Below are positions 19,550 to 36,712 of a stretch of 38,026 nt of DNA, piece after piece (the first letter of the stretch is position 1; every line of letters starts with the position of its first letter). A program made the translations under genes and the position numbers. The DNA lies in IMG/VR virus record IMGVR_UViG_3300032288_003199, positions 1-38,026 of that record; one strand, given 5' to 3'. This stretch comes from a virus. The notes under the pieces are model-generated. The model worked only from the letters and a program-made list of their open reading frames with translations. It did no database searches and was not told the origin of the DNA.

Positions 19550-19720
19550 ATGAAGGTTGGCGATGAGGTTGAGTTTGTGCGTGGTAAGCGCACTGGGCAG
19601 GTTTGGGTTGTGGCAGAGTTTCACAGCGCCGAGCAGGTTCTCGTGAAGCCTACGGCTTCACAGATTGTGTTACTATTGGCAGATATTGACAACCTTAAGG
19701 TTGTCGGGGAGGCAAAATAA
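19550..19720 (+). CDS. Small SH3/KOW-like protein
   Basis: 56 residues from ATG 19550, preceded by a strong CTGGGAGGT site. The open frame extends upstream to 19484 but without any ribosome binding site. The sequence KVGDEVEFVRGKRTGQVWVV has the short beta-barrel pattern of KOW/SH3-like domains that bind RNA, DNA or protein. It then continues with LLLADIDNLKVV. It is the first gene after the candidate structured RNA, so its own translation may be influenced by that leader. It is coupled to the next gene by TAATG. Confidence 0.7.
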   Translation: MKVGDEVEFVRGKRTGQVWVVAEFHSAEQVLVKPTASQIVLLLADIDNLKVVGEAK

Positions 19721-20150: not shown

Positions 20151-21377
20151 ATGTCAGCAGTAAAATCCAAGCCGATTAACGGCTACTATCCCAATACACA
20201 AGAATGCAGTTTTGCCGATGGTTCTCGTAAGCCATTGGTGCAGTGCACCAAGAATGAACTAATTGCACTTTGCAATTATCTCAACATCAAGTTTGTGGGT
20301 CGCCCACCGATGCACTTTTCACCTTTGGTGATTGAGAATGCAATCAAGCAGAATTTGCGTGAGATTCATTACACACCTTCGGTGCCGTCAGTGCCTCAGC
20401 CTGCGGTTGCTGGTTCGTTGGATGGTGCGATTCAACTTGTGGTGCATAATGCGGTGCAAGTTGCATTGGACAAGTTCAAGGCTGGTGTTGATGAGACACA
20501 AGTTGTTCAACTTGTTAATGATGCGATTCAGCCGTTGTTTACTGGCTTCAAGCATGAGGTGACCACTTTAGTGGATGAGATTCGTCCTAAGGTCACTCAA
20601 GTGGTGCTTGATTCCAAGCCTGCGAAAACTCTTGAGGGTGTGCAACACTTTCAGTTTGCTCAGGTGTTGCAAGCGGTTTCACGCCGAGTGAATATGTGGT
20701 TGGTTGGTTCGGCTGGCTCAGGTAAAACTGAGATTGCCCGACAGACTGCCGAGGCACTTGATTTGCCATTCGCTAGCATCAACTGTACATCTACGATGCA
20801 GGACTATCGCATCACTGGCTACAAGGATGCAAACCGCATCTATGATACGACACAGTTTCGTAACATATTTGAGAATGGTGGTGTGTTCGTGTTGGATGAG
20901 ATTGACAATGCGAATCCGAACATTCTCGGCATATTGAACAGCGCTTTATCCAATGGATATATGGCGTTTCCCGACAAGCAGGTTGCCCGTCACAAGGATT
21001 TCGTGGCGATTGCTACAGCCAACACCTTCGGTGCTGGTGCCACGATGCAATATGTTGGTCGCAACCCGATTGACGGTGCCACGATTGACCGCTTTGTACA
21101 GTTGCACATCAAGTATGATGAGGCGATTGAGCAGGCTATGTTGGATGCTGTTGGTTTGGAACCTACGGTTTCAGCCAAGTGGCTCATCAATGTTCGCACT
21201 GCCCGTAAGAATGTTGAGACTGCTGGTCTCAAGATGATTATTTCGCCTAGGGCGACCAAGAATGGTGCGGAGTTGATTGCTGGCGGTTGGTCAGTGCGAG
21301 ATGCGTGGGATGCTTCGGTGCTCAAGGGTGCCAAGGCTGACCAAGTGGACAAGGTAATGGTCGGTGTTTCCCTCTAG
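20151..21377 (+). CDS. MoxR/CobS-like AAA+ ATPase
   Basis: 408 residues. The N-terminal 165 residues are a helical/linker region with no clear domain. The AAA+ core follows with Walker A GSAGSGKT (186-193), Walker B VFVLDE (245-250), sensor 1 ATAN (288-291) and an arginine finger region TIDRF (311-315). The layout fits the MoxR/CobS branch, which remodels proteins and works with a von Willebrand-A-type or other partner encoded next to it. The following gene is such a partner candidate. It has a strong GGGAGGTT site. Its target is not known. Confidence 0.88.
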   Translation: MSAVKSKPINGYYPNTQECSFADGSRKPLVQCTKNELIALCNYLNIKFVGRPPMHFSPLVIENAIKQNLREIHYTPSVPSVPQPAVAGSLDGAIQLVVHNAVQVALDKFKAGVDETQVVQLVNDAIQPLFTGFKHEVTTLVDEIRPKVTQVVLDSKPAKTLEGVQHFQFAQVLQAVSRRVNMWLVGSAGSGKTEIARQTAEALDLPFASINCTSTMQDYRITGYKDANRIYDTTQFRNIFENGGVFVLDEIDNANPNILGILNSALSNGYMAFPDKQVARHKDFVAIATANTFGAGATMQYVGRNPIDGATIDRFVQLHIKYDEAIEQAMLDAVGLEPTVSAKWLINVRTARKNVETAGLKMIISPRATKNGAELIAGGWSVRDAWDASVLKGAKADQVDKVMVGVSL

Positions 21378-21430: not shown

Positions 21431-22279
21431 ATGCAAGTACATATCACGAAGAACAGTCGTGGCGATGAACTGTACATTGAACAGTTTGAGTCACTCGGAG
21501 AGTTGTTGCGCCATGCTGGCGCTAACAAGTCGCCCAAGTCATCCAATGGCAACGACAGCAGTTTCACGCTGACTAAATCCTTGCAGGATGCTGTTGAGTT
21601 GGGTCTCAAGGGCTATACGGATGTGCGTCCCGATGTGGAGGCACAACTCAGCGAACTTGAGTCGCATATCGCCGAGCATCTTGATGTTGCCTTTCAGGCT
21701 TGTCATTCGGTTGTCGGTGGGTCGGTTGATGTCGCCCGATTCATCCAAGGTGAACCCGAGTGCATGGTTGATTATGTTGCCGAACCTCAGGCTCGTATGG
21801 GTCGTGTGGTCAAGGTGCTGGTCAATATGGTGTTCTCGTCATTCGTGAACACTGCGGATATTGTCAAGCGTGGTGTTGTTGTGTGTGCTTTGATTGACAC
21901 TTTGCACAAGTTGGGTGTCGGTGTTGAGGTTTGGTCAGAGGAGCCTACGGCTCACAAGCATATTGACAAGGGTGATGTGTCATCGCATCTAGTCAAGTTG
22001 CATGATTCATCGGAGATGTTGGACATTGACAATTTGATGTTCGGTCTCTGCCATCCGTCAATGCTTAGGCGTATCGGGTTCAGTGTTACTGAGCAGTCGG
22101 GTTGGAAGCATGCTAAAGAGGTTACTGCTGGTGGCTACGGCTATCCGAATAACCTTGAGTGTGTGGCTCGTATCGGTGCTGATGTCACTATTGGCAAGGT
22201 GCAGGATTGCAAAGGCGACATGTTGGCTGACCCTTGCAAGTGGGTGCTCGGTACGGTTGCAGGGTTGGGTTTGGTTTAA
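21431..22279 (+). CDS. DUF7192-like partner of the MoxR-like ATPase
   Basis: 282 residues. The middle part (ARMGRVVKVLVNMVFSSFVN, then KRGVVVCALIDTLHKLGVGV) resembles the Rossmann-like strand-helix repeat of von Willebrand A-type proteins and matches what I recall of DUF7192 from actinophages. The usual metal-binding DxSxS is not evident, as expected for such divergent members. Gene order ATPase-then-partner fits MoxR/CobS-CobT type pairs. The gene is followed at once by the hammerhead ribozyme, so its mRNA 3' end would be made by self-cleavage. Confidence 0.75.
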   Translation: MQVHITKNSRGDELYIEQFESLGELLRHAGANKSPKSSNGNDSSFTLTKSLQDAVELGLKGYTDVRPDVEAQLSELESHIAEHLDVAFQACHSVVGGSVDVARFIQGEPECMVDYVAEPQARMGRVVKVLVNMVFSSFVNTADIVKRGVVVCALIDTLHKLGVGVEVWSEEPTAHKHIDKGDVSSHLVKLHDSSEMLDIDNLMFGLCHPSMLRRIGFSVTEQSGWKHAKEVTAGGYGYPNNLECVARIGADVTIGKVQDCKGDMLADPCKWVLGTVAGLGLV

Positions 22280-22290
22280 CGAAGTTAGGA

Positions 22291-22357
22291 GGACGAAACA
22301 CCTACAGCGTGTTGTGTGTTGTGGGTGTCTAACCGTGTTGCGGTTGCTGATGAGTCC
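22291..22357 (+). ncRNA. Type II hammerhead ribozyme
   Basis: All conserved parts of a hammerhead are present, in permuted (stem II open) order. Stem II 5' strand GGAC 22291-22294. Core GAAA 22295-22298. Stem III 22299-22310 with 22316-22327 (12 pairs, 4 wobble; loop GTTGT). Cleavage triplet G22327-U22328-C22329. Stem I 22330-22335 with 22341-22346 (6 pairs, loop TGTTG). Core CUGAUGA 22347-22353. Stem II 3' strand GUCC 22354-22357. An outer 4-bp helix (22282-22285 with 22364-22367) may extend stem II. Predicted cut after C22329. It lies between the stop at 22279 and the ribosome site of the gene at 22385, so it would separate the upstream and downstream mRNAs. Confidence 0.88.
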
Positions 22358-22384
22358 AGTTTGACTTGATTATGGAGGTTGATT

Positions 22385-22597
22385 ATGGGTTACGAAGTAA
22401 TAGTTAAATGGATACCCGAGGACATACAGTATCACCAGCCTGATTGGCATGAGTCCAAGTGTGAGTTTGTGTTGGATGAAATTTCGCACCAACTGCATGA
22501 GCGTGTTGTTGAATACGGCAACGAAGTTCTTGAGGGTTTGTTGTCCGATTGGATTGATGAAAGCGAAGAGCACTATTGTGAAGAAGAGGAGGCGTGA
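22385..22597 (+). CDS. Small acidic hypothetical protein
   Basis: 70 residues from ATG 22385 with a clear GGAGGT seven bases upstream. A TTG at 22379 lies too near the ribosome site. The N-terminus has GYEVIVKWIPEDIQYHQPDW and the C-terminus is very acidic (DESEEHYCEEEEA). No domain known. Its leader is the 3' product of the hammerhead ribozyme, so its mRNA would begin with a 5' hydroxyl at about 22330. It is coupled to the following membrane gene by TGATG. Confidence 0.7.
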   Translation: MGYEVIVKWIPEDIQYHQPDWHESKCEFVLDEISHQLHERVVEYGNEVLEGLLSDWIDESEEHYCEEEEA

Positions 22598-31034: not shown

Positions 31035-31129
31035 TCCTCTTCGCTGTCATCCAGTTTTTCGCCACACACAGGATTCTGTGGCAACGGCTTTTGCCGTTCC
31101 AAACATGCACACAATTTTGCTTTAAACAT
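31031..31129 (-). CDS. 32-residue last gene of the late operon
   Basis: ATG 31129 shares its base with the TAA of the giant virion gene (TAATG) and TAG lies at 31031-31033. It reads MFKAKLCACLERQKPLPQNP, then VCGEKLDDSEED, with cysteines as CAC and VCG. Too short for routine detection. The exact coupling at the start supports it, but the small size lowers confidence. It contains a 6-bp hairpin (AACGGC-TTTT-GCCGTT, 31083-31098) that may act as a two-way terminator between the operons. Confidence 0.55.
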   Translation of the reverse strand: MFKAKLCACLERQKPLPQNPVCGEKLDDSEED

Positions 31130-34100
31130 TAACCCTCGGATGGAATAAGATTTCGTTCAATCATTTCTTTAGTAAAATCTTTCAAAGTGAACTGACGATT
31201 AATCAACTCACTACGAACATTATCATCCTTAATAATTGTAATCGGAATACCCAACTCATTCAACCACGATTGACCCGTTCGTGTAGCATAATTTTCTTTG
31301 CCACCCAAACTACCGCCAGACAATCTTTGTATTCTGGAAATCAACGGAATAGCGTTACCCAACGCATATTGAGTAAAACCTTTAATAGTCTTATTGCCCT
31401 GCTTGTCATAAATAGGGTCAAACCCGATTGACTCCAAAACATTAACGGCGGCAAGTTCCAAACCACGAGCAGGTGTACGCTCAGGGAAAGGACCGACATC
31501 AATACCAAGTTGCTTGCCAGCAATATATTCAAAAGGCAACTTGTATATTGGGTACGCTTGACCAACCAAACGGCGTGGGTCCAAAATAGAACGCAAACCC
31601 TCCTGCAATCTTTGTTGAGGCATATCAGGTTGAATCGTGTAATAACCTTCACCTAGCAACGGCACATTACCACGACCAACACCCAACGGCTCACGAGATT
31701 CTTGCCATTCAGGAATAATTTGTTCGCTATCAACAGGCAAAGTCTGTTGAACTTTCTCATAAATGTTGTATGCGTTTGGACGCATAAACTGGTTCGTTAT
31801 CTGATTCGGAATGTTCCGTGTTGTCCAAATCCAAAACGGCACAAACTGTAAAGCAACCTCATCCAACTTGGACAAATCAGTATAATCAAAATGATAGCGG
31901 GTTACCTTCGCAACAGCATCATCGTAACTACCACCCTTCAATATGGTGTCTAACGCCATCGGAAAACGCACGGCTGCTTCAACACGAGTGTTCGCACGGC
32001 GAACACCCCGAGTGTACGAGTTCGTAGAGAACCCTTGCCTGCGAACAAAATCGGCTGCGTTCTCCGCAGCAGGTTGCATCCGTGTACCAAAACTAGCGGA
32101 ATCCAAACCAGTTTTATTTAACAAATTGATTACACGCTCACCGAGCGTTCCAGCGATAACGGGTTCACGCAAATCCGCAAACGACCCCTGTAAGCCCGTA
32201 GCAATCGCCGCACGCAACGCCTGCTCGTACTGTCCACGCAACACAGGGTCCACAATGCCCAACTCATCCAACCATTTAGCAGGACCATACTTGTTCAATG
32301 CGTTCATAGCCTTAACGCCGTTCACGGCGGTCATACCATCAACACCAGCAACAGCATTCATAAACATAGACGAATACGAGTTACGAACAACAAAACCGAG
32401 ACTGGTTACCGCATAAGTTTTAAACAAATCATTTGCGGCAGACAAAAACTGTCGCACCATACCAGCATTTGACTTAGCCAAAAGTTTTTGCAAATTAGGT
32501 TTCCACACAGACAACAATTGCTCAGGTGCCTGCACACCCAACCCTAAAATTGCTTCCCAACCTTCAAGCACCCGTGCTTCAACGGGTGCCATAATCGCAC
32601 CAAATCTACCAGTTCTAACAATCTCTATTAGTTCTGCGCTAGCAGTAACAGCATCTTCTGCTTCTGCCAAACCAATTTCACCAACATGCAACAATTCTGT
32701 TACACGCTCATATGCTGCTTTAACAGTCTTGTCTTTAATATATTTGGTTGATTCAACACTGCGTTGCACACTACGCACCCATTCACGGGCAGCGACACCA
32801 GCCTCGCCCCGTGCTGGCATATTCAACATCGCCTGCCCAACAGCAGCAAGTTCATTACGCAAAGCATTACCCGTGCCATCACTCCATTGTTTTAATGTTT
32901 TGGCTTGGTCAAACAAAACCCCCAAACGGTCTTGATATTGTAACAACTTTGTTTCAGCACCCTTAATGGAACCAGCACCACCAACTTTGATATTGCCAAC
33001 AGCCTGAGCAATAGAACGCTCTAAGTTTCTGCGCAACTTCGCTTCCTGCTTGGTTGCCGCCTCCAACGCCTTGGTGATACCAGCACGGTCCAACACAACC
33101 TTCTGACCACCAACAGTAACAGTTTGTTTCCTGCCTTGAATTTCGGCAACCTGCGCTCGTGCACCAGCAACAACCTGCTGTCGTTGCACCTTCTGTTGCG
33201 CCAACATTTCTTTCTGAGCAGTCAATTCACGAATACGGTCATTAATAGCGGTACGAGCAACATCAACTTCTTGTCGTGCGCCAGCAGCCTCAGCCAAACG
33301 ACCCGCAGCAGCCTCGCTGGCAGTCGTATAATCGGAACGCAATATAGAACCCAACACAGGATTGTCGGCACCCTGAACAGGTGCCGTAGTAGAATTAGAC
33401 GGAGTAACCATATAATCCTGCGGTTTAACAACAACAATCGCAGTATCTTCAGCCGTATCATCAAACAACTTCGCAGGCAACAACAATCCGTCCATCTGTC
33501 TCTCTAGGTCGGCAGCCAAAGCCACATCGCCCAACGCCGCATCTATAATCATTCTGCCAGTTTGTTCCGCAGCAGGGTCACCCGACATGTGCGCAATACC
33601 AACCATGCTTGCAACAAAATCATCATAAATGTTTTTAACAATGTCAGGGTCACCACCAGCAGGCATCTCACGACCAGCGTTATCCAATATGTCATCAATC
33701 AAATTCACCAAATCTGGATAACCACGCTCAATCTCTGGGTCCAACGGCAAACCCTGCTTCAAATCATAATAGGTTTTGATAAACACCCTGTTGGCATCCA
33801 AACCAGCGTCTTGCAGTTGTGTATCAATGCTTTTAACAAAGTTATCTGACCCAAAAATTTCTTGAATGCCATCCGATGTCCGTGAATCAACAACCTTGTT
33901 GTCAGGGAAAGCGTGGACACCAATGACATCGGGAGCGCCTTGGAATATTGTTGGTTCGCTATGAAGCAACTGAAACGGTGCATCAGGCGAACCCAAATCT
34001 GTTTGACTGGTATATAGAAAACCATTATCAGGCGCATAGGTTTGTGCGGAACGCACCTCACCCATAATGCGATAACCATTCAACAAATCTTTATAGTAAC

Positions 34101-36672
34101 CTTCTTGCTGCACCAGCGCAGCATATTCAGGGCTGTTCGGGTCCACCAAATCTAGTTGTGTGTTGATTTGACGCAACTCTGCTTGTACGGCTCGTGCTTC
34201 ACGAGAAGCAGGAGCACCCCGTGCAGCCATAATACGGTCAGCCAAAATGTTTATATCATCAGGAATCCGTCTAGCGTTCGGAAACATCGCCATATATGTT
34301 TGCTGCAAAGTGGTACGCACTTCGGACAAACCGCCGTCACCAACTTCAATGGCTCGGCGCAACTCTTTAATTTCCGACAACAACACCGAATGCGCCGCAT
34401 CAAAGTTTTCACGCATAGACACCTCAACGGTGCTTGCCATCGTGCGTGCACGACTCAAATCAAACTCTAATTTTTGCAGTTTTGCTACAGTTGCTTTAAT
34501 TTCACGCTCAGTAAGTTTGCGTTGTTTTAGGTTTTCTTTAACCAAATCGTCAGCATATTTCATACCCCGACTAACAATGTCACGCAAAGTTTGACGCTGA
34601 CTAGCGGCACCTTGACGCAACGAATTACGAACAGCCAACAAACCTTTATGGGATTTGATTAACTCTGATGCCAACATTTTATTTGGAATTTCCACATCCA
34701 ACAATTTTTGTGCAGCATCATCACCATAAGCCATCAGCCTTCTAGTAAACACCTCACGGCTTTTTTGTTTAGCCAAAGAATACGCATACGAATCAGCAAT
34801 ATTGCCGATATCCGTTTCAAAAAAATTTATGTTGGTGCCTGAAACTTCTTTAAAAATTTTGTTAATTTCGTCAATGCCACCTTTTTCCAATATGCGACCC
34901 ATAAACTCTTCGCCAGCCTTCAGGCTGCGATACTTCAAAGGTGCACCAACAGTAACAATTTCGTTGTAACTCAAGTTGTTTGTGTTGAAAACAATCTTTT
35001 TACCAGTCCTAGGGTCTGCAATTGTTATTCCCTTATCATTAAAAGCGTTGATAGAACGCAACCAGTTTTTTGCATCTTTACTGATTGTGTGATGCACATA
35101 GTTATCAATAAAACTAAAATCAGGAATATCAGTTCCATAATCAAGACCGAACCGTTTATATTGCTGTTCAACAGCCTTGTAGGCACCATCTTGCCAAGCC
35201 TTGTAGCGTTTAATCAACGCATCTTCAATATCGCTTCTAGGCAAATCAGGATTCTCAATAAGACTAATTAGTTTGCCAGCAACACCCTGTTCACGGGCTT
35301 CATTGATAATTTCTTCAACACCATCTTTGAATGCATTATATGCAAAACCTGTTTCGCCTTTAGCAGCATTCGCAGCAGACCAACCAGCCAATCCACGAAT
35401 AACACCAGATTCGCTAAGCATGTATTCGCCACCACGCACACTTTTTCTTCCAGCCCCAGCCAACAACGCCCTACTAGCAGGAGCAAGAACAGGGACAACA
35501 TCTAAACCTTTTGCTTTCAAAGGCAATGAAGCGGTTGCACGAGCAACATCACCAATCTGCGCACGAGTCAAAGCCCAACCCTTACCAATAACATCGGCAA
35601 CAGGTTCAGTCCACTGAACAGGTTTACCAGCCAAACGCAAACCAGTATTAATACCCTCAGCCAAACGAATCTCTCTAGGAATAGCCCACATACCAATACG
35701 GCTAATCTCGTTCGCTTTGCCAATCAACACAGGATACTTTTCCAACATTTCTGTTGTCATAAACTTTGCTGCTAATGCTGTGCGTCCAGCCTTACCAACA
35801 TATTGAACCTCGCCAACACCCGTAACATAGTTCAACGGTTTAGTGATTTCTTCCGCAATAAGATTTTGTGCAGCACCAATAAACTTGTTACGCTCAACAT
35901 TACGCTTAGCGATAATCGTTTTCTTCAAACCCCAATCAGGGTCTTTGGCTTGATTAACTAAATCAATAACACTGAACTGAACTTTGTCCCCGCCAATGTC
36001 AGGTCGTTTCAATAACTCTTCTTTGGTGTTACCCATACTGATAATGTCGGCACCAACTTGAAAAAGCGGATTTGAAACAAAACCCGCAGTTCTTACAATA
36101 GATTTTAATACAGGGTTTTTAACGCTGAGTTGCAAATCCGATAACTCTTTGCTGGCGGACTGACCAATACGATTAACAGGATTAATGATTCCGCCAAGTA
36201 AACCAGCCCAAGCCTTGCCTTGGGATTCTAAAGAAAAATCTCCACCAGCCGTAGTCACAGTTTTATAACTAGACTTAAACGGAGACAAAACTTTAGAGTA
36301 CGCTACATCTTGCAGTTTTTTAAACAATGATGGTGCTGGACCGCCAGTAGAAACCTGTCGTCTTTCACCAGCCGCAATACGGTCTGCTTCAGCAATTAAC
36401 TCTTGTTTTTGTTTAGGGGTTAAAGTTTCTGAAAGACGGATTCTTTCCTGAACTGTTCGTGTACCAGTAAACAACTTTTGTTGTTCTTCTGTTGTAGTAG
36501 ATTTTTCTTCTTTAGCAACAAAAGGTTTTGTTGATGTTTCAACAGTTGGTTTTGGGGTTTTAGGAGCATTTTCCCCATACAGCGTTTTATAGTAATCTTC
36601 CAGTTTTGGTGGCGTGGGCGGTGTTTTACCGCTTTTGCGAAAAGCAGTTACTGGATTCGGTGTAATCGCCAT
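31129..36672 (-). CDS. Giant internal virion/ejection protein
   Basis: 1847 residues from ATG 36672 (a TTG three bases upstream is not preferred). Long helical and coiled-coil regions rich in Ala, Gln, Glu and Arg fill much of it, including stretches near 680-790 and 1200-1330. The C-terminal part holds the motif HFDYTDLSKLDEVALQFVPF, then WIWTTRNIPNQ, which recurs in large virion proteins of short-tailed and actinobacterial phages. It lacks a visible lysozyme or protease domain. It is likely ejected with DNA to build a trans-envelope channel, as T7 internal proteins do. It is the longest gene by far, over 14% of the genome. Confidence 0.8.
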   Translation of the reverse strand: MAITPNPVTAFRKSGKTPPTPPKLEDYYKTLYGENAPKTPKPTVETSTKPFVAKEEKSTTTEEQQKLFTGTRTVQERIRLSETLTPKQKQELIAEADRIAAGERRQVSTGGPAPSLFKKLQDVAYSKVLSPFKSSYKTVTTAGGDFSLESQGKAWAGLLGGIINPVNRIGQSASKELSDLQLSVKNPVLKSIVRTAGFVSNPLFQVGADIISMGNTKEELLKRPDIGGDKVQFSVIDLVNQAKDPDWGLKKTIIAKRNVERNKFIGAAQNLIAEEITKPLNYVTGVGEVQYVGKAGRTALAAKFMTTEMLEKYPVLIGKANEISRIGMWAIPREIRLAEGINTGLRLAGKPVQWTEPVADVIGKGWALTRAQIGDVARATASLPLKAKGLDVVPVLAPASRALLAGAGRKSVRGGEYMLSESGVIRGLAGWSAANAAKGETGFAYNAFKDGVEEIINEAREQGVAGKLISLIENPDLPRSDIEDALIKRYKAWQDGAYKAVEQQYKRFGLDYGTDIPDFSFIDNYVHHTISKDAKNWLRSINAFNDKGITIADPRTGKKIVFNTNNLSYNEIVTVGAPLKYRSLKAGEEFMGRILEKGGIDEINKIFKEVSGTNINFFETDIGNIADSYAYSLAKQKSREVFTRRLMAYGDDAAQKLLDVEIPNKMLASELIKSHKGLLAVRNSLRQGAASQRQTLRDIVSRGMKYADDLVKENLKQRKLTEREIKATVAKLQKLEFDLSRARTMASTVEVSMRENFDAAHSVLLSEIKELRRAIEVGDGGLSEVRTTLQQTYMAMFPNARRIPDDINILADRIMAARGAPASREARAVQAELRQINTQLDLVDPNSPEYAALVQQEGYYKDLLNGYRIMGEVRSAQTYAPDNGFLYTSQTDLGSPDAPFQLLHSEPTIFQGAPDVIGVHAFPDNKVVDSRTSDGIQEIFGSDNFVKSIDTQLQDAGLDANRVFIKTYYDLKQGLPLDPEIERGYPDLVNLIDDILDNAGREMPAGGDPDIVKNIYDDFVASMVGIAHMSGDPAAEQTGRMIIDAALGDVALAADLERQMDGLLLPAKLFDDTAEDTAIVVVKPQDYMVTPSNSTTAPVQGADNPVLGSILRSDYTTASEAAAGRLAEAAGARQEVDVARTAINDRIRELTAQKEMLAQQKVQRQQVVAGARAQVAEIQGRKQTVTVGGQKVVLDRAGITKALEAATKQEAKLRRNLERSIAQAVGNIKVGGAGSIKGAETKLLQYQDRLGVLFDQAKTLKQWSDGTGNALRNELAAVGQAMLNMPARGEAGVAAREWVRSVQRSVESTKYIKDKTVKAAYERVTELLHVGEIGLAEAEDAVTASAELIEIVRTGRFGAIMAPVEARVLEGWEAILGLGVQAPEQLLSVWKPNLQKLLAKSNAGMVRQFLSAANDLFKTYAVTSLGFVVRNSYSSMFMNAVAGVDGMTAVNGVKAMNALNKYGPAKWLDELGIVDPVLRGQYEQALRAAIATGLQGSFADLREPVIAGTLGERVINLLNKTGLDSASFGTRMQPAAENAADFVRRQGFSTNSYTRGVRRANTRVEAAVRFPMALDTILKGGSYDDAVAKVTRYHFDYTDLSKLDEVALQFVPFWIWTTRNIPNQITNQFMRPNAYNIYEKVQQTLPVDSEQIIPEWQESREPLGVGRGNVPLLGEGYYTIQPDMPQQRLQEGLRSILDPRRLVGQAYPIYKLPFEYIAGKQLGIDVGPFPERTPARGLELAAVNVLESIGFDPIYDKQGNKTIKGFTQYALGNAIPLISRIQRLSGGSLGGKENYATRTGQSWLNELGIPITIIKDDNVRSELINRQFTLKDFTKEMIERNLIPSEG

Positions 36673-36712
36673 CAATTATGCCTAGTTTGTTCCCATAATG
36701 GGATTATGAAAC

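Follow-up and report, generated by a model that had tools for sequence, protein, structure and literature searches.

The window, that is, the whole 38,026-base virus record analysed here, contains portal, terminase, DnaB-like helicase and AEP primase genes, and its source is a tailed phage. A MoxR-like AAA+ ATPase gene and a DUF7192 gene follow each other on the plus strand (Table 1), the latter ending in a TAA stop codon at 22277-22279, and 11 nt after this stop begins a motif with all the parts of a type II hammerhead ribozyme. The 70-aa open reading frame (ORF) beyond it has homologues that are 82-96% identical in two related loci (L001 and L024). A preliminary description of this DNA had set the ribozyme after a stop codon and before a ribosome binding site, next to MoxR- and DUF7192-like genes; both the placement and the neighbours were confirmed.

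A search of bacterial genome contigs with the helicase, aimed at the host, returned no relative. Homologues of DUF7192 in named phages come mostly from Mycobacterium and Gordonia phages, so an actinobacterial host is suggested, although this is only a guess. The largest gene of the record (31129-36675, minus strand) encodes a 1848-aa protein with no PHROG match.

In many genes of this phage group the Shine-Dalgarno (SD) sequence caps a hairpin whose arms differ from gene to gene around a constant ACU[GGGA]GGU-like tip, as in the MoxR hairpin ATACGACT[GGGA]GGTTGTAT. Such hairpins precede the window start codons at 19550, 20151, 21431 and 22871 and also occur in L001, L007, L021, L024, L051, L063, L071, L083, L098 and L113. 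Stems of at least 6 bp were found at 41% of the relatives' genes with GGAGG and at 36% of those of the window (n = 14), against 10-12% with shuffled arms; unrelated viral loci gave 6% versus 4%. The hairpin looks like a shared translational control leader.

Anatomy and detection of the ribozyme

Table 1. Features of the ribozyme and of its neighbourhood, in window coordinates.
Feature	Position	Strand	Basis or remark
MoxR-like AAA+ ATPase gene	20151..21377	+	PF07728, phrog_249
DUF7192 gene, upstream neighbour	21431..22279	+	PF23822, phrog_1909
A flanking the 5' side of stem II	22290	+	A in 325/331 viral relatives among the matches listed
Type II hammerhead ribozyme, whole motif	22291..22357	+	Direct reading, fold, type scan, covariance model
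Stem II, 5' strand GGAC	22291..22294	+	4 bp with GUCC 22354-22357
Core G12, A13, A14 and A15.1 (GAAA; GAA = 22295-22297)	22295..22298	+	Direct reading
Stem III hairpin, 12 bp	22298..22328	+	Closing pair A15.1-U16.1; direct reading, folds
Predicted cleavage site 22329^22330, after C17 (C22329)	22329..22330	+	Direct reading and established hammerhead chemistry
Stem I hairpin, 6 bp, loop UGUUG	22330..22346	+	Direct reading, fold, loop statistics
Catalytic core CUGAUGA (C3-A9)	22347..22353	+	Direct reading
Stem II, 3' strand GUCC	22354..22357	+	Direct reading, fold
3' tail AGUUUGACUUGAUUA	22358..22372	+	Candidate post-cleavage hairpin partner; folds, relatives
Shine-Dalgarno GGAGG of downstream gene	22374..22378	+	Direct reading
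70-aa ORF without family match, downstream neighbour	22385..22597	+	ATG at 22385

Three helices of 4, 12 and 6 bp surround the core, and core and helices alike are those that define a hammerhead. Direct reading, folding and a type scan agree on the type II topology, in which loops close stems I and III and stem II is open. Stem III pairs 22298-22309 with 22317-22328 (three of the 12 pairs are G-U) around a loop at 22310-22316, and by itself is a stable 12-bp hairpin of -16 kcal/mol. The GUC cleavage triplet ends at C22329, with U22328 and C22329 as the UH dinucleotide. Stem I is made of 22330-22335 and 22341-22346, and its loop holds the conserved U as U22336. The minimum-energy fold of 22286-22362 is the hammerhead structure (-26.8 kcal/mol, z = -2.65). 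On direct reading, the CUGAUGA, GAAA and GUC elements and the stem lengths (I, 6 bp; II, 4 bp; III, 12 bp) of the preliminary description were all correct and correctly placed, and its type II assignment, permuted order and predicted cleavage site were borne out by reading, fold and covariance model. The chemistry of hammerhead cleavage is established. An extension of stem II by 8 bp, predicted for the window and for L001, is absent from other relatives and for this reason is not claimed.

A hammerhead descriptor (at least 4 bp in stem II, 6 bp in stem III and 6 bp in stem I) matched once in the window and never in 400 Markov-simulated windows; when the window was scanned for hammerheads of every type (I, II and III), neither a type I or III motif nor a second type II copy turned up. 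The Rfam hammerhead models, proposed earlier as a check, gave no match at gathering, nor up to E = 10 in 401 bases. The element does not reach the gathering threshold (37 bits) of RF02276 (Hammerhead_II), whose consensus has a stem II of 2 bp versus 4 bp in the window; Rfam misses the element because its type II model describes this shorter stem. The same model passes its cut-off for 4 of the 46 descriptor matches in nine viral loci (L115, L090, L029, L110, L061, L042, L086, L001 and L024). Our own covariance model was trained on 55 type II hammerheads of viral origin and excluded the window's relatives apart from the distant L126; its sole match in 38 kb is the element, at 22289-22359 (53.4 bits, E = 6.4e-13). 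Detection by this independent covariance model shows that the Rfam null reflects a limit of the Rfam model. A nucleotide search of phage records gave no match.

Relatives and placement in viral contigs

In the nearest relative, L001, where DUF7192 is 94% identical, the same ribozyme carries two substitutions in stem III, C302U opposite G324 and U303C opposite G323 (numbered by the last three digits of the window coordinate), and both pairs are kept. In L007, L071 and L083, whose MoxR and DUF7192 proteins are 46-53% identical to those of the window, a hammerhead also lies directly behind DUF7192, with stems I and III that differ and yet are fully paired. The site is occupied in all four loci, over DUF7192 identities of 51-94%. 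The conserved stems that the preliminary description had suggested looking for are therefore present, re-paired, at the same site and at about 50% protein identity. A hammerhead stands directly before MoxR in L083, L051 and L113, and before a DUF3846 gene in L007, L071, L021 and L063. As relatives carry the ribozyme before, behind or on both sides of the MoxR-DUF7192 pair, the spot directly behind DUF7192 is common, not obligatory. Our covariance model gave a match in 12 of 13 records searched, GenBank MW202803 included; it detected no hammerhead in Mycobacterium phage LeBron (NC_014461), a carrier of the MoxR-DUF7192 pair.

Covariation counts from our alignment A1 are inflated, since the descriptor that picked its members requires paired stems; an unbiased test of pairing uses patterns that fix stem II and the core alone. 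Three such patterns gave at least 120 matches each in viral contigs. Among the distinct matches listed, 318 of 338 also form stems I and III with a UH between them, and none does so after shuffling of the interior, so the listed matches are real hammerheads and very numerous; non-redundant viral type II copies number more than 300 among them.

These copies occupy a characteristic position. We looked for a stop or a start within 60 nt, with the mirror strand as control, around the 304 non-redundant copies with enough flank. Among these matches listed, the stop of a sense ORF of 70 codons or more lies at most 60 nt upstream in 232 (mirror strand, 81), overlapping the first base of stem II in 58 and directly abutting stem II in 41, and an SD with a start codon lies at most 60 nt downstream in 264 (mirror strand, 35). 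Because these flanks far exceed those of the mirror strand, the element is sense-strand punctuation between cistrons, and the window copy shares this stop-to-SD placement. Many viral contigs carry hammerheads of type I or III as well; an SD and start within 60 nt downstream were present for 51/110 type I and 11/30 type III copies, as opposed to 264/304 of type II, among the matches listed. In loci selected for type II, the hammerheads that fall outside the search patterns comprise 62 of type II, five of type III and two of type I.

Some loci are densely populated. On the minus strand of L197 (9152-12752), eight type II hammerheads lie in about 3.6 kb between successive minus-strand ORFs, so that a ribozyme parts nearly every gene from the next. 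L115, L097, L110, L090 and L329 hold 7-11 hammerhead copies each, and one phage, L418 (1892-6179), has five type I/III-pattern hammerhead cores in 4.3 kb.

Loop contacts and the 3' tail

Among the matches listed, loop I begins with U in 99-100% of the copies of this subclass with a 4-bp stem II, and the window carries both subclass marks, U22336 and A22290; the third position of its loop I is U, where A is commoner. The conserved loop-I U and the A before stem II may point to a non-Watson-Crick contact between loop and flank. A pseudoknot between loop I and the 3' tail was not enriched over permuted tails (331 viral copies among the matches listed), and in the window this pairing reaches a weak 4-bp version at most, with two G-U pairs. 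As this pseudoknot is not enriched, rate enhancement would have to use other loop contacts.

In a minority of copies the tail complements the ribozyme itself. In one type of tail, the sequence NUCAG, placed where stem II ends or close to it, is complementary to the core CUGAN, and the core base N7, unpaired in the hammerhead, covaries with it: after removal of similar tails in the viral type II set (L003-L357), CUGAU met AUCAG in 43 copies and CUGAC met GUCAG in seven, with three exceptions among those classes and one other (Fisher p = 1.8e-6, phylogeny uncorrected). In the other type, the element pairs with UGA and the 3' strand of stem II, whose sequence it follows, matching its own strand in 33 of the 338 copies listed, where tails permuted 2000 times among ribozymes gave 15.2 on average and 24 at most. 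The window's lineage has a tail of this second type, in which GACUU (22363-22367 in the window) is complementary to GAGUC (22352-22356), that is, to core G8 and A9 and the stem II strand. Such covariation of tail with core implies an alternative hairpin that would sequester the core.

Folding suggests when this hairpin might form. For uncut RNA extending to 22384, the probability of stem II is 0.99 and that of the anti-hairpin about 0, and we rejected the hairpin as an OFF state preceding cleavage, to which these pair probabilities lend no support. In a cut 3' product ending at 22368-22378 the anti-stem hairpin is the minimum-energy fold; in longer downstream RNA of the window the SD region competes with it. 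Averaged over the viral copies listed, the tail raises core pairing slightly (0.513 vs 0.487), a small effect that is expected because the tail feature is confined to a minority. We tentatively suggest, at somewhat less than even odds, that some phage type II hammerheads, those in the lineage of the window among them, are one-shot RNA switches in which cleavage is followed by tail-core pairing that locks the product. The partners in such a lock, put forward with the same reserve, would be CUGAU/AUCAG, CUGAC/GUCAG or GA with the stem II strand (GAGUC/GACUY). If this is true, the lock adds another protective hairpin close to the 5' end created by cleavage, and tail covariation offers a possible mechanism for irreversible cleavage.

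Proposed role and comparison with known ribozymes

We put at about 0.85 the probability that this type II hammerhead is functional and serves to cut between cistrons, and transcript processing appears the best reading of its role: the ribozyme probably cuts a shared mRNA into two hairpin-capped pieces. If, as we assume, the MoxR/DUF7192 block and the downstream gene lie on one transcript, the early RNA would fold as it leaves the polymerase and cleave itself at 22329^22330. The upstream mRNA would then end in the stem III hairpin, and the downstream mRNA would begin with the stem I hairpin and a 5'-OH at U22330. Ends capped in this way should withstand exonucleases and 5'-end-dependent decay, and because both new ends would be hairpin-capped the two gene blocks would gain separate mRNA lifetimes. 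With lower confidence, stem II may open after cleavage and GACUU may pair with GAGUC, leaving the ribozyme locked open and religation prevented. From geometry, the type II order alone closes both cut ends in hairpins, unlike types I and III; this geometry, the closer SD and starts and the type II-rich loci fit a role in making hairpin-capped, separately stable mRNAs, a possible reason why phages carry ribozymes at all.

Other explanations have to be set against this one. An intact ribozyme might be mainly regulatory, with the tail, pairing of the SD region or a factor switching cleavage and tuning the downstream gene. The covarying tails described above and the ability of the window's SD region to pair with the tail would suit such a switch, and regulated cleavage of phage copies has been discussed by Perreault et al. 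(PMC3088659); however, stem II is almost fully formed in the uncut RNA while the anti-hairpin is nearly absent, the loops have no ligand-binding insert and many copies have no such tail, and we judge a mainly regulatory role unlikely.

That cleavage has been lost and the motif is a decaying remnant seems very improbable to us: the U at the third position of loop I, where A is commoner, might hint at decay, but the core is without substitution, both stem III substitutions in L001 preserve pairing and the ribozyme is kept across about 50% protein divergence. Stem III, stable as a lone hairpin, might instead act as a terminator, an RNase site or an mRNA stabiliser, its likeness to a hammerhead being secondary. 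Yet it is not an intrinsic terminator, as there is no U-run and a terminator scan gave no terminator-like match at the site, and relatives keep the whole catalytic core while the stems change, which makes a simple hairpin element hard to credit. The simulated windows and the conservation in relatives reduce a chance match to a negligible option. Processing by a probably active hammerhead stands as our preferred reading.

The space between phage genes thus appears to be routinely punctuated by type II hammerheads, to an extent that the public RNA-family model largely misses. Natural type II hammerheads were described in 2011, in clusters flanking single prophage genes, and were proposed to divide long phage transcripts into gene-length mRNAs; tandem phage-type hammerheads cleave in vitro and in E. 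coli (PMC3088659). A 2023 paper found bacterial hammerheads enriched near Mu-like phage genes, for a reason still unexplained (PMC10085705). The preliminary description had presented the placement behind a MoxR/DUF7192-like pair as undescribed: the link to these genes does seem to be so, whereas gene-flanking type II hammerheads of phages and the proposal of a processing role were already published (PMC3088659). The open-licence literature yielded no paper on DUF7192, and none came up on covariation between tail and core, a feature that, in its minority of copies, is possibly new.

The window element and its subclass share with RF02276 and the type II hammerheads of Perreault et al. the order GAAA, stem III, H17, stem I, CUGANGA, the open stem II, the phage or prophage home and the position between genes. 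They differ in having 4 bp, not about 2 bp, in stem II, a long stem III, the conserved loop-I U and A before stem II, and a sub-threshold score. The loop I-tail pseudoknot, part of the published type II consensus, occurs in about 40% of all hammerheads and in the majority of type II, being common and not obligatory (PMC3088659); the present subclass is not enriched in it. In an Agrobacterium tumefaciens prophage, hammerheads likewise sit beside phage genes, flanking ardA, and these clusters cleave in vitro and in E. coli, with processing proposed (PMC3088659), but the genes are others and the copies clustered, while the window has a single copy. HHphage of haloviruses HF1 and HF2 lies upstream of a virus early gene with a mapped 5' end near the cleavage site; it differs in its archaeal virus host, variant core and proposed salt dependence (PMC3088659). 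Phage hammerheads of types I and III have the same core and are common in viral contigs, but are less strictly intergenic than type II. All together, the kind of ribozyme and its proposed processing role have been known since 2011, and what is new is its abundance, its sense-strand stop-to-SD placement and the tail covariation of a minority.
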